A DNA stretch of 64,000 bases from Christensenella timonensis (lineage in GTDB: Bacteria; Bacillota; Clostridia; Christensenellales; Christensenellaceae), in NCBI RefSeq assembly GCF_900087015.1, contig NZ_FLKP01000002.1:62001-126000 (forward strand), given 5' to 3'. A program made the position numbers and the translations under genes. Under the pieces are notes generated by a model. It had not been told where the DNA came from and did not search any database. It saw only the letters and a program-made list of their open reading frames with translations. Positions 51,780-62,686 of this stretch are shown here, in pieces (the stretch's first letter is position 1; every line of letters starts with the position of its first letter).

Positions 51780-52859
51780 TCACCTTCCCGCCAGCGCCGC
51801 CACCTCTTCATTATGGGCAAAGAGCGTACAGCCTCCATTGTGTCCCACGCGGGCCGTAAGGTCCCGCAGTTCCATAAAAAATCCTGAACGCAGCGCGTCT
51901 TCCAGGCGACCTTCTTTCAAATCGATCAGCGAATAGGGCGCAAACGGGCACGGCTCCGCTCCGCCCGCGGCGTTGATATGGAAAAAGCCGTGTCCGGATG
52001 CAAGGCATCCGCCCGTCTCCTCTTCATCGCCCGGAAACGATACCACGACCATATCCGCAAACTGTCCCCGCAGTGTCCGGGTCATCTCCTGCATTTTTTT
52101 GACATCTCCCTCATCCAGCATCAGGCGCTCTGTTCCCGGCTGTACCGGCACGTATTCCACATAAAAAAGCACGCCGCACCCTCTGTTGCGCAAACCTTCC
52201 ACAAAGCTATCCTGCGTCACCTTTTCCATATTTTCCTTCGTCACTGTGACGGAGGTGCCAAATAGCATTTTCCTTTTCTGCAAATGACGCATAACGCCTG
52301 CCACCGTCCTGTAAGCGCCCGGCCCCCGCCTTTGATCCGTTGCCTTTTCGTCCCCTTCGATACTGAATACAGGGATCAAGTTGCGATGGCGCTCAAAAAG
52401 CGCAAGGTACGTTTCGTCGATGAGCATACCATTGGTAAAGACCGGAAACACCATATTTGGAAAACCCGCGGCCGCCCGTATCACGTCCCTGCGCATCAGC
52501 GGCTCTCCCCCCGCGAGTATGATGAACGATACGCCCAGCTCCGACGCCTGCATAAAAAGGTTTTCCCATTCCTGTCCGCTCAAATCGACATTGCCGTTTA
52601 CCGCATCCGTACACGCGCCGGACGCGCGGGAATAACAGCCCGTACAGTGCAGGTTACACTGCGAAGTCACGCTCGCGATCAAAAACGGCGGGACGTGCAG
52701 TCCTGCCCGTTCCTTCCTTTCGCGCTGTTTTGCACTCCGTTTGATCTCCGGAGCGGTTTTCATCAAAAAGGCAAGGCCTTTGGGGTTGTTGAGATAAAAC
52801 CTGCCTGCCGTTTTGACAAGCTGGGAGATGCCTTCGTTCATATATTGGTTTAAATTCAT
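51780..52859 (-). CDS. Radical SAM protein with SPASM-like C-terminal region
   Basis: A 359-residue protein. The cluster motif CNLHCTGC binds the [4Fe-4S] cluster that cleaves S-adenosylmethionine, followed by the SAM-binding LAGGEPLMR. The C-terminal part (GGCLASGHGFFHINAAGGAEPCPF) has a partial SPASM-type Cys set. Such proteins modify peptides or small molecules. It is coupled to the TetR gene by a four-base ATGA overlap and is probably induced by that regulator's ligand. Confidence 0.88.
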   Translation of the reverse strand: MNLNQYMNEGISQLVKTAGRFYLNNPKGLAFLMKTAPEIKRSAKQRERKERAGLHVPPFLIASVTSQCNLHCTGCYSRASGACTDAVNGNVDLSGQEWENLFMQASELGVSFIILAGGEPLMRRDVIRAAAGFPNMVFPVFTNGMLIDETYLALFERHRNLIPVFSIEGDEKATDQRRGPGAYRTVAGVMRHLQKRKMLFGTSVTVTKENMEKVTQDSFVEGLRNRGCGVLFYVEYVPVQPGTERLMLDEGDVKKMQEMTRTLRGQFADMVVVSFPGDEEETGGCLASGHGFFHINAAGGAEPCPFAPYSLIDLKEGRLEDALRSGFFMELRDLTARVGHNGGCTLFAHNEEVAALAGR

Positions 52860-53494
52860 ATATTCTCTCCGTGTGAAATATGGTAGTGTGAGGCGAATTC
52901 TTCTATGTGGCAGTCAAGCAGCCGCAATGCCTCGTCATGCTTTTCCGGCTTGGAATCGTACATCAACAAAAGCAGCAAGATCGGCCCATAAAACTGTGTT
53001 GCCGTGGCGACCGGGTCTGCTTTACGGAAGTAACCTTCCTCCATCAACCGTTCAAACAAGGACGACTGGAAGGTTATCGCCCCACTGATGAGCCATTCCT
53101 CGAACAGCTTTGCCGCTTCGTTGTTCTTATACTGCTCGATCATCAGGAGGTGGATGAATTTCTTTGCATACGCGTCATCCATAAAAAACAGGAACATTGC
53201 CTCTACCGCCTTTTTCAGCCATACCAGGTTGTTCTCCCCATACTGCTGATAGACCTGCTCGATCTCTCCCTGCGGCAATTGATAGAAGGCCACCGTTTCT
53301 TCAAAGCGCTGGTTCATACCGTCGAGAAGCGTTTTGAATATCTCCTGCTTGCTCTTATAGTGTTTGTAGAGCGAGCTGTCCTTGATCCCTACGGCATTGG
53401 CAATGTCCCTGACCGACACGCCGTCGTATCCGTTGACCGAAAATAAATTAAGGGCTTCTTCCAAAATGGCTTGTTTTGTATTCCGTTTTTCCAT
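52856..53494 (-). CDS. TetR/AcrR-family repressor
   Basis: A 212-residue regulator with a TetR helix-turn-helix (AILEEALNLFSVNGYDGVSV, ANAVGIKDSSLYKHYKSKQ) and a long ligand-binding helical domain. ATG 53494 follows GGAGGG. A 16-bp palindrome is located exactly in the spacer of its promoter, with a second copy downstream of the -10, so it strongly looks autoregulated, together with the coupled radical SAM gene. Confidence 0.92.
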   Translation of the reverse strand: MEKRNTKQAILEEALNLFSVNGYDGVSVRDIANAVGIKDSSLYKHYKSKQEIFKTLLDGMNQRFEETVAFYQLPQGEIEQVYQQYGENNLVWLKKAVEAMFLFFMDDAYAKKFIHLLMIEQYKNNEAAKLFEEWLISGAITFQSSLFERLMEEGYFRKADPVATATQFYGPILLLLLMYDSKPEKHDEALRLLDCHIEEFASHYHISHGENI

Positions 53495-53506
53495 TTTCCC
53501 TCCGAA

Positions 53507-53554
53507 GCTAGCGTTCACTAGCTTTAGTATAGCTAGCGAACGCTAGCCTGTCAA
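53507..53554 (-). promoter_or_regulatory. TetR promoter with two operators
   Basis: Minus-strand TTGACA (53554-53549), 17-base spacer, TATACT (53531-53526). The palindrome GCTAGCGAACGCTAGC (53532-53547) fills the spacer and a near copy GCTAGCGTTCACTAGC lies at 53507-53522, 25 bases away. Confidence 0.85.
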
Positions 53555-53565
53555 GCCAAACCAAT

Positions 53566-53607
53566 AAAAAGATCCTTGAAAGAATAAACCCTTTCAAGGA
53601 TCTTTTG
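53566..53607. terminator. Terminator of the protease-pseudokinase gene
   Basis: A 16-bp perfect stem (AAAAGATCCTTGAAAG and complement) with a T run on each strand. Confidence 0.9.
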
Positions 53608-53619
53608 AAAAAACAACAT

Positions 53620-56217
53620 TTAATCCAGTTCCAACTCGTAGGTTTCTCCTGATTCATTATTTTTCAATACAAGCTCATATTGCGTGAGTTTCCACACTTC
53701 ATAAGCAATGACCAGCTCGTTATTACTACTCATGAACCGCAGCTTCCCATCCTTTATTTCTATATAGGAAGCATCTGATCCCTGCGGCAGATTTGTCGTC
53801 CATCCGTCCTCTGTCGAATTATAATAATATGTATCGTTGTTCCAATTTCCCAACATCAGCGGAAACAAATAATCTTCGGAGTTAATCATCCGTAGCATAT
53901 CTTTAGCTTCATCGATCCCTTGCTCGGTCAATTGTTGAAGGATCGGTCTCATTTCGCCAAATTCGCCCTTTTTAAAAAGTTCCAAAACCATTGCGCTTTC
54001 CGAAAATCCCGCATATTCTTCATCATCCGACAGCAAAGCATATAATTCAGATGCACGTGCATAATCCAAGTTGTCCATTGCATAAGCGGCTTCGCTCAGC
54101 ACAACTTTATCGATAGCGGTAATCACGTATTTTTCTTCCTGGAAAGGCATATGCTGCAATATCCCTATCGTTTTCTCGTAATCTCCCGCCTGCGTATACC
54201 AAGTGTCCGTCCATTCCTCTACCCAATTCTTGCCTCTGTCCCTGGCTATTTGGGTGTCAGGCACCCGCTTAAGCCATGCATAGCCTTCCTCATCCCTATC
54301 ATTTTCAAATTGCCATCCTGCTTCTCCATATGTTAAATAAGCAATCTCTTCGTCAACATCTTCATCACCCGCATAGGGCGTTAAGATATCGATCGCTTCT
54401 TCCGTTTTTTCGTCCAAATATAATTCATCGCTGTATGCGATCACAATATCTTTTTTCAGCTTATCCGCCTGCTCGCCTTGCGCTGCTGTCTCCATGTATT
54501 CCAGCGCTTTTTCGTATTCCTCGTTTTGGAATGCCGCTCCGGCCTGCCCCAGTGTATAATTTGCCTGATCCGCTTCGGAAAGGAAGTATGCCGTATCATA
54601 TTTCTGCGTCGCCTGCGCATAGCGCTCCTGTTCCAGCAATTTTTCAGCAGCCTTGATCACGTTCGCATTTTGGGTAAACAGGACACCGCATAGGATCGCC
54701 ACGGCAGCGACTGCCCCTACGGGGATCAGCCACAAAAGTTTTTTTCCGCCCTTTTTGGGTTTTTCCGCCCCGGCAGCCGCTTCCTGCCCTGCCGCTGCCG
54801 GCTGTTGGGCGACCGGCGGCGCAATCGACAACGCGTTGATCATTTCCCCCATGTTCTGGAACCGTTCGCGCGGGTCTGGATTCAAACTCTTTATAAACGC
54901 CTGTTTGTATTGGTCATAGACCGGCAGCGAATTGATATTATTGACCACCGTTTGGTCATTTTGCATACGGGAAAATATTTCCGGCGGGTCTGCACGGAAC
55001 AAAAGACGGTACAACACGGCAGCAAAGCCGAAGACATCGGTATATCCGCCATCCGTTATATCGCTGCGATATTTTTCCAGCGGTGAATAGCCCGGGCTGA
55101 TTACGACATTGCTACTGCCGGAGGAGGCAGCGGGCAATTCTTTCAGTTGTGTCGATCCGGTACCCGGGTCGATCAAAATATTTTCAGGCGAAACGCTCCC
55201 ATACCATTGCATTTGGGCATGCGACTGGGCCAACTGATAAGCCACCGGAGCCAATAAGCGCATTGCGTGATCAAAGTCAAACGGCGTATACGCCGTCTCC
55301 AGATAGCTCTTTAAAGTCAATTCATTTCCCTTACCCTTTTTCTTCATTGTCCCCATACCCCTCTTTTTCCTCTTTATCCATAAAAATACAACCACGATCA
55401 ATGCCGCCGCTGCAACAACCATTACAACGGGGATCCAGACAGGAAAAGCTTCGTCATGAAAATATCCAATTTCCTGATCATCCAGAAAATATTTCAACTC
55501 CAAGCTACTGATCGCCCCATTGATATTTTCGGCAGCCATCAGGATCTTTGCTTCCAGTCCTATCCCAAACGAAGTGATACCGATCACCTCTCCGTTGGCG
55601 TTCAAAAGAGGGCCGCCGGAATTGCCGCCGCTGATCGGAACATCGATTTGATAAGTTTGTACGCTTTTGGACGAATCCGTGATCCATGAAACCGGCTTGA
55701 CGGAACTGACAATGCCCGAGGTAATGCTGACCTGCTCACTGAACGTATCCGCTTCGTCAAAGACATAATCCGCGGCTGCCGGAAAACCAAGCGCATACAC
55801 TTCCGTACCAATATTGTTTTCCATATCGCCCGTGTAAAGACGAAGCGGCTTCATTTCATCGATCGGCCGCTCCAATTGCAAAATCGCCAAATCAGAGGAA
55901 GGGCGCGTCGCGTATACAGTAGCCTTTGTTTTCAAATTACTGTCCGTTACGACAGTGATCTCGTAAGGTTCCCCTTCCACAACATGATAGTTCGTCACGA
56001 TAAAATCAACATAATCGCTGTCTCCCACCGCAAACCCGGAACCAACGGCCACGCCGCCATCATCGCCCAGATATTCGCAAACGACCTTGGCTACGCCTGT
56101 CCTTGCATCCAAAACCTCCTGCGGGGCTCCTGCGGCAAAAGCCGTTGACGCTATGGCCAAAACGACAAGGAAACAGACAAAACCACATATTTTTCTGTAC
56201 ATACGTTTTTGCTTCAT
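53620..56217 (-). CDS. Trypsin-like protease, pseudokinase and repeat-domain transmembrane protein
   Basis: An 865-residue protein. Order: signal peptide (1-29); trypsin/DegP-like protease (30-260) with His78 (TNYHVV), Asp109 (SSDLAIL) and Ser200 (SGGNSGG); membrane helix (262-281); a kinase-like C-lobe (295-465); a second membrane helix (495-515); and a TPR-like repeat plus C-terminal beta region outside. The kinase part has YGSVSPENILI in place of the catalytic HGDISPEN loop (Asp replaced by Ser341), no N-lobe Gly loop, no DFG, but keeps SPGYSPLEKY and a TDVFGFAAVLYRLL helix, so it should not phosphorylate. It is monocistronic. No known protein of this layout comes to mind. Confidence 0.85.
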   Translation of the reverse strand: MKQKRMYRKICGFVCFLVVLAIASTAFAAGAPQEVLDARTGVAKVVCEYLGDDGGVAVGSGFAVGDSDYVDFIVTNYHVVEGEPYEITVVTDSNLKTKATVYATRPSSDLAILQLERPIDEMKPLRLYTGDMENNIGTEVYALGFPAAADYVFDEADTFSEQVSITSGIVSSVKPVSWITDSSKSVQTYQIDVPISGGNSGGPLLNANGEVIGITSFGIGLEAKILMAAENINGAISSLELKYFLDDQEIGYFHDEAFPVWIPVVMVVAAAALIVVVFLWIKRKKRGMGTMKKKGKGNELTLKSYLETAYTPFDFDHAMRLLAPVAYQLAQSHAQMQWYGSVSPENILIDPGTGSTQLKELPAASSGSSNVVISPGYSPLEKYRSDITDGGYTDVFGFAAVLYRLLFRADPPEIFSRMQNDQTVVNNINSLPVYDQYKQAFIKSLNPDPRERFQNMGEMINALSIAPPVAQQPAAAGQEAAAGAEKPKKGGKKLLWLIPVGAVAAVAILCGVLFTQNANVIKAAEKLLEQERYAQATQKYDTAYFLSEADQANYTLGQAGAAFQNEEYEKALEYMETAAQGEQADKLKKDIVIAYSDELYLDEKTEEAIDILTPYAGDEDVDEEIAYLTYGEAGWQFENDRDEEGYAWLKRVPDTQIARDRGKNWVEEWTDTWYTQAGDYEKTIGILQHMPFQEEKYVITAIDKVVLSEAAYAMDNLDYARASELYALLSDDEEYAGFSESAMVLELFKKGEFGEMRPILQQLTEQGIDEAKDMLRMINSEDYLFPLMLGNWNNDTYYYNSTEDGWTTNLPQGSDASYIEIKDGKLRFMSSNNELVIAYEVWKLTQYELVLKNNESGETYELELD

Positions 56218-56393: not shown

Positions 56394-58145
56394 TTAACGA
56401 TATCGCGGCCCAAAATTCCGGCATGCCCGGAAATCCGCGCCTTCCGGGTCATTCATGCCGAAAAACGCCCATGCGCTCGGCCTCTGCAGCCTGCGTTCAT
56501 CCACATTATGCATATTGACAGGGATACGCAGCATGGAAGCCAGCGTAATGAGCTCCGCACCGATATGTCCATAAACGATCGCGCCGTGATTGGCTCCCCA
56601 GTTCGCCATCACGTCGTACACGCTCTTGCATGCATATTGGTCTGCAACAATGGGAGCAAACCAGGTCGTCGGCCAGGTCGGGCAGGTCCGCTGGTCCAGG
56701 ATCCGGTGCACATCCGGTTCCAGCTCGCACGAATACCCCTCCACAAACTGCAACACAGGCCCCAGCCCCGCTACGCGGTTTAAGCGTATCATGGTAAGGG
56801 GCATGCCGCCGCGTGAAACAAAGTGGGAAGAAAATCCTCCCCCGCGGAAAAATCCCAGCATGTCGGCGTGCCAGGTCGTAGCATCAAGGCATTTCTGCGC
56901 TTCTTCTTCCGTAATTTCCCAAAACGGCTTCATTGCCGGCTTCCCATCCTTTTGTTGCTCCCCTGTAGCATCCAGTGCGGTCGTGCCTGAGTTGATCAGG
57001 TGGATCAAGCCGTTTGCCGCGTGCCCGGTCAGCTCCTTGCCCGTTACCCGTTTGACAGATTCCGGGCTCCAATAAGTCCGCACATCGCTGAACATGGGAG
57101 CCGTCTGTGACAGCAGATGCCCGAAGAGCATCGCCGTCCCATTCATGCAATCCCCTTCCGTCGCCACTACATACGGATGGCGGATACCGTTCCAGTCAAA
57201 GCTCCCATTTAAGATCGTTTCCATAAAATTTGCGCTTGTGCGAAAATCCGTCCATTGCCGCTGCCCCTGGAAAGAAGCCATGATCGCGTTGTTTCCCAGC
57301 CCTTCTTCATTGAAACCGTTTTGCCTTAAGTATTCGCTCCCCTCCATCATATCCCGCAGGATCATCGACATTTTGATCCCATCAAGCCAATTTTCATCCT
57401 TTTGCCCGGATGTACGCGGGTGTTCGTTGACATCCTCGCCTTCCCGGCAATTTTTCTTGACCCATTCAAAGGCCCGGGCACATTCTCCTGTGTCCAGCAC
57501 ATCATGTTCGATACGGCGGATCACTTCCGACATATCCTTATATTCACAGTGCATCCCGAGAAACTTTTCAAAAAAATCCTCATCTGCCACACTGCCCGCC
57601 GTCCCCATACTCACAGTGCCGACCGATAAATACGCCTTGCCCTTCATTTGCGCCACGGCACAGGCGCACCGTGCAAAGCGGATCAGTTTTTCCTGTACAT
57701 CCGCAGGGATCGCACGGTCTGCCATGTCCTGGATATGATGCCCGTAAATATTGAAGATCGGATCCCCTTTTTGCATATGTCCGCCGCATAACGCCGCGGC
57801 ATATGCGGCTCCCGGGCCTTCGCTTCCGTTAAAGCCCCATACGGCTTTGGGGATATCCCTTTGCAGATCCATCGTTTCCCCCGGATAGCACCAGCACGGA
57901 GCGACCGTGATCGAGGCTTCCACTCCTGCCAGTTCAAATTTTTTGCGGCAAGCGGCCGCTTCCGCAAACCCGCCGATCGTCCAGTCGGCGATCACACATT
58001 CCACAGCCTTGCCATGCCGGTCTTTCACCTGTGAGGACAGCAGCTTCGCAACCGCTTGCGCCATTTCCATCGCCTGTTGATCCGTACTTTCCCTTACGCC
58101 CTGTTCACGGCCGTCATTTACCGGCCTGATTCCAATTTTCACCAT
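56394..58145 (-). CDS. fucI: L-fucose isomerase
   Basis: A 583-residue isomerase that converts L-fucose (and often D-arabinose) to the ketose. The sequence is collinear with E. coli Fuc[44 protein letters not shown], the metal-site [18 protein letters not shown]-like [13 protein letters not shown], and [16 protein letters not shown] with the third ligand His. ATG 58145 follows GAGGTGAG; the frame from 58247 is 34 residues longer without support. It is the last gene of an operon with a glycyl radical enzyme and a ribose-type transporter. Confidence 0.95.
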
Positions 58146-58165
58146 TTTCTCACCTCTTGTTTCCG

Positions 58166-59083
58166 TTATTCCATTCCTATGATCTCCGCCTCGATCCCGC
58201 AGCCCCGAAAATCCTTCCTGATTTCTGCGAGCATTTCTTCGCTGCAATAAGGTATGCTCTCAAGCGGCGCGATGTGCTCAAGCAGCCCCATCCCCCGGTA
58301 TTCCGCTATTCCCAGCCTGTGGTAAGGGAATACCCGCAGCTTTTTAAGGCCGAGCCTATTCATAAAACAGGCCATCGCTTCCCTGTTCGCCTGTTCGTCA
58401 TTCATCCCTGGTATACATGGGTAACCGATCCATATATCTTTTTCCATATCCTTGATTTTCCCAAGGTTTTCGAGCACGAGCCGGTTGGGGCTCCCCGTCA
58501 GTCTTTCGTGGATATCGCTGTCCATGTGCTTGATATCCACCATCAGCAGGCCGGCCATTCCCACCGCCGGTTTTATCTTCTCCCAGCTTAAGTTCGCGGT
58601 CGTTTCAATAGCTGTATGCACCCCGTTTTCCCCCAGGATCTCCAGCAATGCACACACAAACTGCGGATGCATAAGCGGTTCCCCGCCCGATACCGTGATC
58701 CCGCCGCCTGTTTCTTCATAAAACATCTGGTCTTTCAATAGCTGCCCCGCGGCCTCTTCTGCCGTCATGATCTTCCCTGTTTTTTCCACCGCGGCCTGCC
58801 GGCATACCTTCACACACGCCCAGCACCGCTCACACTTTTTGCGGTCGTATCGGGCGCCGTCGCCTTGTATGGTAAGGGCGCCCGTCCGGCAGGTATCTGC
58901 ACAGGCGCCGCACCGGATGCACTTCGCCGTATGGATCAATATTTCCGGATCCCTTTGCCAAGTCGCCGGGCTGGAACACCATTTGCACCGCATGAAGCAC
59001 CCTTTCAGATGGATCACGCTCCTGGCTCCCGGCCCGTCATAAGTGGAAAACCGCCGTATTTCCCTGACATATACCTGTTCCAT
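58166..59083 (-). CDS. Glycyl radical enzyme activase (radical SAM)
   Basis: A 305-residue radical SAM protein with CFMRCKWC as the SAM cluster and two ferredoxin-type clusters ([14 protein letters not shown] and [13 protein letters not shown]) inserted after it, the layout of activases for PFL, CutC, HypD and diol dehydratases. It uses SAM to make the glycyl radical on its partner. The partner gene lies 20 bases upstream on the transcript. Confidence 0.95.
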
Positions 59084-59103
59084 GCGCGCTTCCCTCCGGC
59101 CGG

Positions 59104-61503
59104 TCAGGAAAAAACGTGTTCGTTGCGTTTGATGATCTCTTCCTGTACTTCGTGTGAAAGATCCACGAAGAAAGCGCTGTAGCCTGTCACCCGCACGGCG
59201 AGGCCCCGGTATTTATCCGGTTGCTCCTGCGCCTTGCGCAGTACCTGGCTGCTGACGATATTGAATTGTATCTGCATGCATTTCATTCTGACAAACGTCC
59301 GGATCAGGCCCTCGAAAGCCGCGATCCGTTCCTTTTGGATGGCATACGGATCGATACGCATATTGAAGATCAGGCCGTTTCCCATCTCGATATTGTTCAA
59401 TTTCCCCACCGATTTGATGGCTGCCGTAGGCCCCTCCAGGTCTGTCCCCGGCTGTGACCCCACAGAATCCGAAAGCGACGCGTACGCCTGCCTGCCGTCT
59501 GCCGTGGCCCCCACATCTTTTCCCATAGGCAAAACAGAGGACATCGGGATGCAGGACAAAAGATAGGGGCCGCCGCGTTCATTTTTTACGGTACGCAAAG
59601 CGTCGGCTACCACATTGAGCGCGTCGCTCGTCAGTTCGTCCACATAATCTTCGTCGTTACACCATTTCGGCGCGGCTAAAAGCTCTTTGCGCAGCGCTTC
59701 ATAGCCCTTAAAGTTTTCTTTCATGGCCTTCAGCAGTTCCGGCAGTGTAACCGTGTGTTTTTCATAGACCGCCTGTTTGATGGCAGCCAGCGAATTCCCG
59801 GTAGTCCCGATCCCCACGACATTGGGCCCGGTAAAATTGAATTCACATCCTCCGTCCGTGATATCCTTCGCTGTCTTAAGCACATCCATAGTCGCCGAAA
59901 GGAAAGGCACGGGCATGAGTTCTGCATGGCCGGCGTCCGCCACATTCTGCATAATGGCATTCTGGTGTACAAAATATTGCACCTGCTTTGTATAGGCCTC
60001 CATAATGTCCGCAAAGCCTGTCGTTTCCGTCATCTCTCCGGTCTGCGGGCCCATCTGCATGCCTGTGATCATACATTTCCCATCGTTGAGTGCGAGCTCC
60101 AGGCATTTGGTTTGGTTGATAAACCCGCCAAAGCCCCTGCCGTGCAGCTTGCCGGGAAGGCCGGGCTCATTGCACCCCTCAATGCAGTACTCCCGCGCCA
60201 CTTCAAGCGGAACGCCCCGTTCCATAAGCGACGGGATATAGACTTCGTCATTGTCGAGCTGCGGCATCGTATTTGCGTCGCGTATCGTCCGTGCCACGGC
60301 ACGCAGGAATTTTGGCGGCGTAGCCGAATGGATGCGCACACCGAAATTTGGCTGCGGCAGGCGCAGGTGGAGCTGTGCATCCAGCATCATGTAAGAAAGC
60401 TCGTTGGTCACATCCCGTCCATATTTGTTGACGCCGCCCGCTACCATGTTCTGCCCCATGGGGAACGACGCATTCGTCGCCGCAGTATGCTTATCGTAAA
60501 GCTTGACCATTTCCGTAAACTTCAGCCAGAAGGCTTCCAGTACCTCCTGCAGGTTTCCATCCAGCCCATTATCCCGCGAACATAAGTAATAAGGATAGAC
60601 ATACTGGTCCAGCCTGCCCGGGGAAATGGACACGCCCTCCGTCTCGATCTGTGTGATCAGCTGTACAAACCAGATCGCCTGGAGCGCTTCCCAGAAGGTT
60701 TCAGCCGGATGCTGCGGTACCTTACGGCATATTTCCGAAATACGCAGCAATTCCTTCCTGCGTTTCGGATCCTGTTCCCTGCCCGCCATACGGAAGGCTT
60801 CGTCCGCGTAACGGTGTGCAAACAAGACCGCCGCATCACACGATATTATCACAGATTCCATGAACAGCCTTTTTTTATTCGCGCCCGGCTGTGCAAGATC
60901 CATACTGCCTAGCACATCCTGCGCCTCTTCCTTGATCCCGCTAAAACCGATGCGGAGGACTTTTGCAAAATCCTGCGCAATATGCCCCAGGCCATTGTAC
61001 AAATGGTATCTTCCGTTCAATACCGAATGCGGCATATAGTTCAGGTTCAGCGTTTCCTTGGGCACGCGTTTCAGCATGTAATCATATAATGTTTTTCCGC
61101 GCCAATACCCAAAGATCCCCTGCAAGTCTTTTTTCACCGGATCCGGCACGATGAATTTATCCTGCGCCCTCGTTTCAAATTCATCCATTTCCTCTTCCAG
61201 CCAGAATATTCCCATTTCAGGAAAAACCTGCGCGCTGCGTAAATGCTCTGCCATCTGCCCCACGATCAGCTCGTCATCCGCGATCCATACATGGAGGTTC
61301 TCCAATATCCGTTTGAGTGTTTTTGCCCGCTTGATACAGATCGGCTCGCTCTCGAATTCCTGGTAAGCCTGCGTTACGATCAATGCGCGCTGTGCGCTGA
61401 CATACGGCGTGACGGAAGCAATTTTTTCCCGCATCCTTCCGATCCTGTCCGTGCATCCATATTCCCGTTCCAGCGCTACTTCCTTTTCATCCAACGTTTT
61501 CAT
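59104..61503 (-). CDS. Glycyl radical enzyme of the dehydratase/lyase class
   Basis: A 799-residue radical enzyme. The glycyl loop is RVTGYSA with Gly774, and the active-site Cys is in EYCIEGCNEP at about 444, followed two residues later by Glu446, as in CutC and diol dehydratases (C-x-E), unlike PFL, which has two adjacent Cys. The N-terminus has no microcompartment-targeting extension. The operon context (L-fucose isomerase, monosaccharide ABC transporter, no microcompartment genes in view) suggests a sugar, sugar acid or propanediol-type substrate. Substrate not determined. GCNEPGLPGK is an unusual version of the active-site loop. Confidence 0.92.
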   Translation of the reverse strand: MKTLDEKEVALEREYGCTDRIGRMREKIASVTPYVSAQRALIVTQAYQEFESEPICIKRAKTLKRILENLHVWIADDELIVGQMAEHLRSAQVFPEMGIFWLEEEMDEFETRAQDKFIVPDPVKKDLQGIFGYWRGKTLYDYMLKRVPKETLNLNYMPHSVLNGRYHLYNGLGHIAQDFAKVLRIGFSGIKEEAQDVLGSMDLAQPGANKKRLFMESVIISCDAAVLFAHRYADEAFRMAGREQDPKRRKELLRISEICRKVPQHPAETFWEALQAIWFVQLITQIETEGVSISPGRLDQYVYPYYLCSRDNGLDGNLQEVLEAFWLKFTEMVKLYDKHTAATNASFPMGQNMVAGGVNKYGRDVTNELSYMMLDAQLHLRLPQPNFGVRIHSATPPKFLRAVARTIRDANTMPQLDNDEVYIPSLMERGVPLEVAREYCIEGCNEPGLPGKLHGRGFGGFINQTKCLELALNDGKCMITGMQMGPQTGEMTETTGFADIMEAYTKQVQYFVHQNAIMQNVADAGHAELMPVPFLSATMDVLKTAKDITDGGCEFNFTGPNVVGIGTTGNSLAAIKQAVYEKHTVTLPELLKAMKENFKGYEALRKELLAAPKWCNDEDYVDELTSDALNVVADALRTVKNERGGPYLLSCIPMSSVLPMGKDVGATADGRQAYASLSDSVGSQPGTDLEGPTAAIKSVGKLNNIEMGNGLIFNMRIDPYAIQKERIAAFEGLIRTFVRMKCMQIQFNIVSSQVLRKAQEQPDKYRGLAVRVTGYSAFFVDLSHEVQEEIIKRNEHVFS

Positions 61504-61549
61504 ATCATTACCTCAAACCGGTGTTTTACCAAATCGTTCTATGCCCCAG

Positions 61550-61603
61550 GCCGGCGCATGTACGCCGGCTGTTTTTTTGGCGGGCCGGGATACCCCGGCC
61601 CGC
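61550..61603 (-). repeat. Tandem intercistronic hairpins between binding protein and GRE genes
   Basis: Two GC-rich palindromes: GCCGGCGCATGTACGCCGGC (61550-61569) and a 24-base hairpin with GCGGGCCGGG/CCCGGCCCGC arms (61580-61603). The T run between them favours plus-strand termination, but on the minus transcript they are stable stems without a T tail and may protect or stop part of the transcripts. Confidence 0.6.
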
Positions 61604-61618
61604 GCCACCCTGCTTTGT

Positions 61619-62686
61619 TTAGCCCTCTGCCGCCTTTGCGTATTCATCCAGATAAGGCTGCATATTTTCCGGCGTTACCACGCTGACGCCCGTATCTACA
61701 TATGCCGGCAGCGGGCTTGCCCCGCTCTCCTGCCAGCCGGGGGTCGGATTGAGCGGTGCGTTATCCGCCATATACAGGAACTGGAATGCCCAAAAACCCA
61801 TGTTCCAACTGCTCTGTGCGATCAGCCCGTTGATCGAGCCCTCTTCCATCAGGTCGAGCAGCGATTGATCCACGTCAAAGCTGATCAGCTTGATGTCGCC
61901 CGCTTTGCCGCTTTCCTTGATCGCCGTCGCGGCGCCTACGCCCATGTTTGCATTCGCAGTATAGATCCCGTTTACATTCGGGTTGGACTGGATCAGGGAG
62001 GCCGTGACCTGTGCCGCTACCTCTTCCTGTGTTTCCCCGTCCACTTCCTGTACGATCTTGATATCAGGATATTTGGATTCGATTGTTTCGCGGAACCCGT
62101 TCGCACGTTCTTCGATATTGAGCTGTCCTACCGTCGCGACAATGGCGACCTCGCCCTTTCCACCCAACAGTTCCGCCATATATTCCGCTGCCGCTACGCC
62201 GCCTTCATAATTCTTGGTCGATAAATTGGTGTAGCGCCCGCTGTCGGGTGCGTCCGAATCAAATGTGACGACGGGGATACCTGCCTCGATCGCCTTGTTG
62301 ATCGGTTCGATATAGGCGTCGGGGTTCATACAGGTAACTGCGATCCCGGCCGGCTTTTTGGCAATGACCTGCTCTAAAACAGTGATCGCTTTATTGATAT
62401 CATATTCCGGCGCGCCGTCATATACCGTTGTCGCGCCGTAAAGCGCGGCCCCGTCTTCAAACCCCGCATAACACTGTTTCCAGAAATCGATGCCCGAAAC
62501 GAACGTGACCATATAATATTCCTTTTGCGGGTCGGCCTGCAGCACGCTCCCGCCTGCGTCCCCTCCTGCCGCACTTCCTTCCGCACCCGCTGCCGCGGGC
62601 GTGCTCTGGCAGCCGGCCAGCAGCATACATGCGCACAGGCATACCGTAAGTACAACACCCAACATCTTCATCCAATTCTTTTTCAT
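61619..62686 (-). CDS. Sugar ABC transporter substrate-binding lipoprotein
   Basis: A 355-residue Peripla_BP_4 protein. The signal ends in a LLAGC lipobox. The binding domain begins EYYMVTFVSGIDFWKQCY and has QVIAKKPAGIAVTCMNPDAY and GIPVVTFDSDAPDSGR, the pattern of ribose/xylose/autoinducer-2-type receptors. It is separated from the glycyl radical enzyme gene by two hairpins and follows the permease by 44 bases. A strong AAGGAGGAAG site precedes the ATG. Confidence 0.93.
   Translation of the reverse strand: MKKNWMKMLGVVLTVCLCACMLLAGCQSTPAAAGAEGSAAGGDAGGSVLQADPQKEYYMVTFVSGIDFWKQCYAGFEDGAALYGATTVYDGAPEYDINKAITVLEQVIAKKPAGIAVTCMNPDAYIEPINKAIEAGIPVVTFDSDAPDSGRYTNLSTKNYEGGVAAAEYMAELLGGKGEVAIVATVGQLNIEERANGFRETIESKYPDIKIVQEVDGETQEEVAAQVTASLIQSNPNVNGIYTANANMGVGAATAIKESGKAGDIKLISFDVDQSLLDLMEEGSINGLIAQSSWNMGFWAFQFLYMADNAPLNPTPGWQESGASPLPAYVDTGVSVVTPENMQPYLDEYAKAAEG

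Follow-up and report, generated by a model that had tools for sequence, protein, structure and literature searches.

A membrane protein of Christensenella timonensis that joins a trypsin-like protease to a kinase C-lobe and an external TPR-like arm

The locus, the layout of the protein and its protease half

The window analysed here is a stretch of 64,000 nucleotides from Christensenella timonensis. On its minus strand, positions 53620..56217 hold a gene for a protein of 865 amino acids that is laid out as protease, membrane helix, kinase C-lobe, membrane helix, TPR-like repeats and beta domain. A first-pass annotation, made from the letters of the DNA, had placed a single protein there without naming the strand, and the frame is indeed uninterrupted at exactly these positions. 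An assembly artefact or a frameshift join is ruled out, because the same order recurs in seven genomes (on a single contig in G003 and G049) and the frame has no internal stop.

All features of the protein lie on the minus strand. It opens with a signal peptide (residues 1-28, 56134..56217), seen as a hydrophobic segment at residues 10-28 with cleavage placed by eye after AFA. A protease domain of the trypsin/HtrA type follows (residues ~36-252, 55462..56112), and then a first membrane helix (residues 260-281, 55375..55440), a hydrophobic segment with nine Lys/Arg on its C-terminal side and none on the other. About 20 residues separate this helix from the first helix of a kinase C-lobe devoid of N-lobe (residues 298-466, 54820..55326), which is delimited by alignment, profiles, structural model and fold matches. 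A linker of Ala, Pro and Lys (residues 467-492, 54742..54819), modelled with low confidence (pLDDT <50 at 464-499), leads to a second membrane helix (residues 493-515, 54673..54741) recognised by hydrophobicity and Lys/Arg counts. The remainder is predicted to be a TPR-like helical solenoid outside the cell (residues 516-788, 53854..54672), made of modelled helical hairpins mostly at pLDDT 72-94, and a small C-terminal beta domain (residues 789-865, 53623..53853) with eight modelled strands at pLDDT 82-93. Directly 3′ of the stop codon, a terminator-like hairpin (53567..53606) combines an 18-pair stem with a T-rich tail; a scan of the region gave five terminator-like sites against 4.0 expected in shuffles, which is not significant overall.

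The proposed signal peptide and two helices around a cytoplasmic middle are well supported. In all seven full fusions, Lys/Arg flank the inner sides of both membrane helices, so that the protease and the arm are predicted to lie outside and the middle segment in the cytoplasm. The proposal of extracellular TPR-like repeats stands in part: the model gives an external helical solenoid, but all Pfam TPR matches are sub-threshold (TPR_16 at 0.0092 is below the cut-off), and the beta domain had not been told apart from the repeats. This beta domain can be aligned in P0010, P0012, P0013, P0014, L112, L090 and L116, and P0002-P0004 have the TPR arm without it.

The genes around the fusion were named by eye, among them tRNA synthetases, ApbE, a Gx transporter and fucose isomerase. 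A TetR-type regulator, likewise assigned by eye, occupies 52856-53554 with a promoter-like site at 53554-53526 (11/12 matches), around which GCTAGC-like half-sites are repeated, perhaps as the regulator's own operator. On one strand at 56394-62686 lie genes for a fucose isomerase, for a glycyl-radical enzyme together with its activase, and for a sugar-binding protein, all named by eye, which may form a fucose/diol pathway.

The protease looks active, as the first-pass annotation had stated. Pfam finds Trypsin_2 at residues 59-214 (E=1.6e-24), and the alignment shows the triad H78, D109 and S200 complete in all seven full fusions, which by sequence makes it a trypsin-like (S1) serine protease with a His-Asp-Ser triad in a trypsin fold. 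The full-length model, of low confidence at protease residues ~147-200, matches DegQ, DegP and HtrA1 at Z ~24. Protease rows predominate among the fold matches listed for it, which include 7sjy, the structure of RsgI9; this Clostridium thermocellum protein takes part in signalling at the membrane, and its outer domain has a trypsin fold. Despite its likeness in fold to the HtrA/Deg proteases, the fusion differs from them in having a second membrane helix and a C-lobe in place of PDZ: Pfam matches no PDZ domain in the window protein at E 1, which leaves it outside the HtrA/Deg definition, and TIGR02037, with a cut-off of 416 bits, scores 82. Pfam likewise finds no FHA domain in it.

In a protease tree, the fusion proteases group with proteases of the trypsin-TM-FHA type (30 rows, 99/98) apart from eight other trypsin-like proteases, seven of which have PDZ-like tails by eye. 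Rows were sorted by their tails, also by eye, into 14 with FHA-like tails and eight without, and one candidate, L069, is absent from the tree. The protease-TM half of the fusion is thus, by its sequence, of the trypsin-TM-FHA type.

The kinase segment

Residues 298-466 align with the kinase C-lobe from the hinge and helix alpha-D onward, in relatives as in complete kinases. The N-lobe with its Gly-rich loop and ATP-binding Lys is absent, the alignment beginning at the hinge. At the HRD position the protein reads YGS (339-341), with S341 in place of the catalytic Asp, and at the DFG position it reads ELP (360-362). The APE Glu (E381), the alpha-F Asp (D394) and an Arg (R452) are kept. Judged from alignments and the predicted fold, the middle segment corresponds to a zinc-ribbon kinase C-lobe that has neither an N-lobe nor catalytic residues, and with the residues present it is incapable of canonical phosphorylation. 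An active kinase is ruled out by the missing N-lobe and by the YGS and ELP readings. The segment has the C-lobe fold of a Hanks-type Ser/Thr kinase without its HRD, DFG or N-lobe, and can be called a pseudokinase, a kinase fold that has lost its catalytic motifs, for the C-lobe half only.

Profile comparisons place this C-lobe in one branch of the kinases. Against a profile of 15 zinc-ribbon kinases it scores 91.3 bits, where 180 shuffled copies reach 5.0 at most, and against a profile of six PrkC sequences of the genus it scores 1.3 bits, so an origin from PrkC is rejected. Profile-profile comparison with the 15 complete kinases gives E=1.1e-39, a negative control with a TPR alignment 0.3% probability; these kinases were chosen by their HRD-SP motif, so that the conservation of HRD among them is by construction, unlike that of DFG. 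Kinase matches were also returned for PADLOC PD-T4-6 (314-487, E=3.6e-8) and NCBIfam MAD6 (300-478, E=4.2e-6), while the Pfam Pkinase profile has no match in the window protein at E 1. A defence system was considered and set aside: the PADLOC profiles matched are those of proteases and kinases in general, and the surrounding genes of the window seem to be metabolic.

Structure prediction points the same way. The C-lobe model, built from an alignment that included the 15 complete kinases, reaches pLDDT 87.8 and pTM 0.86, and its best PDB match is PpkA (5x1r, Z 19.6, rmsd 3.2 over 170 residues); PknB is also matched, and no EssB/YukC chain is among the PDB matches listed. A full-length model that drew on nine members of the fusion family alone gives the same order of helices, at pLDDT 62-85 over the block and 46 at 361-370. 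The first-pass claim of a pseudokinase reduced to its C-lobe, with Ser341 for Asp and neither Gly-rich loop nor DFG, is thus confirmed by alignment, profiles and model, and the kinase fold that it anticipated in this segment is predicted.

Within the C-lobe, E381, G390 and R452 are invariant in nine of nine members of the family, and E381 and R452 presumably form the structural salt bridge that holds kinase C-lobes together. The alpha-F Asp is retained in eight of the nine and lost in P0010. HRD is kept in none; the catalytic Asp itself occurs only in P0013 and P0014, both of which also lack DFG. Between the window protein and the six other fusions, identity is 25-34% in the C-lobe against 13-19% in the outer arm. 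Erosion is strong in P0012, which scores 34.5 bits against the kinase profile, and P0010 scores 40 bits. In a kinase tree, the fusions separate from complete kinases (99/99) on long branches that join. As their C-lobes nest with no single kinase and long branches meet, the tree cannot give the parent kinase, nor the number or date of fusions.

Distribution of the fusion and the split operon

Full fusions occur in at least seven of 396 genomes of the order, in four families (G000, the window genome, with G001, G002, G003, G082, G049 and G064), so that the domain order does recur in relatives; the count is a lower bound, obtained at an E threshold of 1e-20 with no more than two candidates scored in any genome. 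In class and phylum searches at E 1e-35, no full fusion was found outside Christensenella, the 15 of 391 and three of 398 genomes that matched doing so otherwise through protease, kinase or TPR parts alone. A search for related loci with the window protein as query returned no relative.

To judge from sequence comparison, the layout is a mosaic, with relatives that lack the kinase part, lack the protease or consist of TM-TPR-beta only. P0014 (G085) has a mere remnant of the protease and P0013 (G120) none, their start codons having been assigned mechanically; both retain the C-lobe. An Oscillospiraceae MAG encodes a protein (L090:5959-7992, plus strand) that combines the protease with both helices, the TPR arm and the beta domain, and in which ~50 residues replace the kinase part. 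In G017, of a sister genus, TM-TPR-beta stands alone (L112:4984-6219, plus strand) at the locus that holds the fusion in G001-G003. No fused-but-still-active intermediate was found among the members of the family.

The fusion genes of G001-G003 lie at a common locus, next to a gene for a Gx-type transporter, and the window copy lies elsewhere. Its protease is equally distant (37-42%) from those of all six other full fusions, and the gene has a G+C content of 47.8% against 52.9% for the window, with a GC3 of 52 against 61-69 in five neighbours. Different locus, equidistance and low G+C do not support vertical orthology with the G001-G003 gene; they could be accounted for by transfer or by an old paralogue.

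The same parts are also encoded separately. In G001 and G004, genes for a PP2C phosphatase, a protease-TM-FHA protein, a 107-aa ORF and a complete zinc-ribbon kinase follow one another on one strand, and G003 has the same order. Pfam supports PP2C in G001 and G004, FHA in G003 and G004 and the kinase in G004; FHA is confirmed in three split-system proteases. The protease-TM half and kinase C-lobe of this split operon are homologous to those of the fusion, from which it differs in its separate genes, its FHA domain and its complete kinase with catalytic motifs. G001 and G003 have fusion and split operon, G004 the split operon only and G005 neither. The fusion did not simply replace the split operon, because G001 and G003 keep both. 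The first-pass annotation had counted pieces found as separate genes in close relatives as evidence against a genuine fusion. Neighbouring separate genes do exist in G001, G003 and G004, but G001 and G003 also have the fused form, as do three other families.

Variations on the split system were observed as well. In family f48 (L074-L078; another order, Clostridia-type), a zinc-ribbon kinase, a PP2C, a trypsin-TM-FHA protease, a second PP2C and a zinc-ribbon-like FHA protein stand in a row with a ~500-aa membrane protein; in G624, Pfam confirms the PP2C, protease-FHA and FHA genes, and the kinase was called by motifs. In G003, a 569-aa zinc-ribbon kinase paralogue without C-lobe (P0008, L034:6363-8069, minus strand) is a mirror image of the fusion: its zinc ribbon and degenerate N-lobe (54% over 142 aa) run directly into a membrane helix and an outer domain. 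The outer domain of the six operon-type kinases of Christensenella is different from the TPR arm of the fusion. Linkage of a zinc-ribbon kinase with PP2C and vWA genes is mentioned in the accessible part of an earlier paper (PMC7159879).

The fusion genomes themselves differ in their kinases. In the window genome, the one full Pkinase match is PrkC with PASTA domains, and there is one FHA protein, 157 aa long. A PrkC-type kinase is the only full Pkinase match in four of the seven full-fusion genomes (G000, G002 besides the fusion itself, G082 and G049), the type being called by motif in G002, G082 and G049 and PASTA being Pfam-confirmed in G000 only. G064 has PrkC and two further kinases without zinc ribbon.

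Possible origin and role of the fusion

The best explanation, which we hold tentatively and which falls somewhat short of probable, is that the protein corresponds, in a single chain and with a dead kinase, to the split PP2C / trypsin-TM-FHA / zinc-ribbon kinase module, and that in it the C-lobe serves as a docking platform. In the split system, the protease would be tied to the kinase through FHA and phosphothreonine, a contact that PP2C could undo. In the fusion, covalent linkage would make this phospho-dependent contact permanent, and the reader (FHA), the writer (N-lobe, HRD and DFG) and the eraser (PP2C) would thereby become superfluous. The retained C-lobe may then act as a cytoplasmic platform for docking or dimerisation, as in EssB/YukC, while the outer TPR arm would catch a client or partner in the envelope, with the protease as output.

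A fuller version, which is rather doubtful, holds that a complex under the control of phosphorylation, made up of writer kinase, PP2C eraser and a membrane protease with FHA as reader, collapsed into one polypeptide with the half-kinase as permanent dock, and that half-kinases (a C-lobe here, an N-lobe in the G003 paralogue) are working bacterial modules. The best explanation itself draws on the union of fusion and trypsin-TM-FHA proteases at 99/98, on the C-lobe scores (91.3 bits for the zinc-ribbon kinase profile against 1.3 for PrkC), on the operon order of G001, G004 and G003 and on the four of seven genomes in which the fusion manages without the split partners, a PrkC-type kinase being the only one. 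The predicted C-lobe fold, the invariance of E381 and R452 where HRD and DFG are gone, and a C-lobe better conserved than the arm are consistent with it. By analogy, the YukC pseudokinase of B. subtilis copurifies with the FHA region of YukB, according to the accessible text of PMC9600267. Against it, binding of FHA to the kinase is an assumption, no fused-but-active intermediate turned up among the members found, and the long-branched C-lobes of the fusions nest with no one kinase. G001 and G003 have fusion and split operon side by side, the outer domain of the operon-type kinases is unlike the TPR arm, and both L090, devoid of kinase part, and the eroded P0012 (34.5 bits) suit a dispensable part.

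These last two cases lead to a serious rival, itself doubtful, in which the protease and the outer arm, on their two membrane helices, do the work, and the C-lobe has become a passive relic or spacer that is being lost. L090 keeps the same layout with a ~50-residue linker in place of the C-lobe, the low scores of P0012 and P0010 and the missing alpha-F Asp of the latter suggest decay, and the sister-genus G017 has TM-TPR-beta only at the fusion locus. Lobes are also readily lost here, since the zinc-ribbon kinase paralogue of G003 has lost its C-lobe. A relic is harder to reconcile with E381 and R452 being invariant in nine of nine members, with the high-confidence fold (pLDDT 87.8) and with a C-lobe kept in four families, even where the protease is lost (P0013 and P0014).

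The first-pass annotation had read the protein as a sensor whose outer parts perceive envelope damage and whose pseudokinase relays the signal to a cytoplasmic partner, which we consider unlikely. The predicted topology fits, and kinase-type receptors do have outer sensor domains. Nevertheless, the inside carries no catalytic output domain, canonical phosphorylation is impossible for the kinase part, and L090 manages without it; the gene stands alone, with no conserved partner gene, and its context in the window differs from that in G001-G003. More unlikely still is a decoy or adaptor for PrkC that would place the protease or the TPR arm beside the PASTA kinase. PrkC is the one full Pkinase match in G000, a PrkC-type kinase is alone in four of seven full-fusion genomes, PknB pairs front to front via alpha-G, and the alpha-G Arg and Asp (R417, D421) are kept in a four-row alignment, but a C-lobe scoring 1.3 bits is not PrkC-like. 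That an EssB/YukC protein of type VII secretion gained a protease is very improbable and such a component is not supported: the order pseudokinase, membrane helix, helical domain is common to EssB/YukC and TraF in the accessible texts (PMC9600267, PMC13037476), but YukC has no match in any of six Christensenella genomes, PF10140 has none in the window protein at E 1, and the C-lobe, with no N-lobe, is close to the zinc-ribbon kinases.

EssB/YukC and TraF are nonetheless the closest mechanical analogues. EssB/YukC of the type VIIb system resembles the fusion as an interaction hub with cytoplasmic pseudokinase, membrane helix and external all-helical domain (PMC9600267, accessible part); it differs in having both lobes, one membrane helix and no protease. 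TraF, of the pIP501 type IV secretion system, likewise joins a pseudokinase through a membrane helix to a TPR-like helical domain (PMC13037476, accessible part), but is two-lobed, has no protease and belongs to a conjugation machine. A precedent for joining a pseudokinase to a trypsin-like protease is SltB of Aspergillus nidulans, although in the accessible text (PMC4557415) this fungal protein has the pseudokinase first, a protease of the Ssy5 family and no such membrane layout. The PASTA kinases PrkC and PknB share the C-lobe fold and the passage from cytoplasmic kinase part through a membrane helix to an outer domain; they are active, have an N-lobe and carry PASTA rather than TPR, and the C-lobe of the fusion is of another branch. 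A review of bacterial pseudokinase families, in its accessible part, mentions no association with trypsin, peptidase or TPR (PMC12599244), and no account of this protein came up in open-licence papers searched for fusions of protease and pseudokinase, for pseudokinases lacking a lobe, or for the split operon.

The architecture is real, recurring and unusual, and the mechanism is inferred from it. Should the C-lobe have a function, half a kinase fold devoid of any nucleotide site can persist as a bacterial scaffold, and docking would be separated from catalysis more cleanly than in two-lobed pseudokinases. The fusion also points to a possible physical link between the membrane FHA-protease and the zinc-ribbon kinase of the split operons, a pair that occurs in several families of the order.
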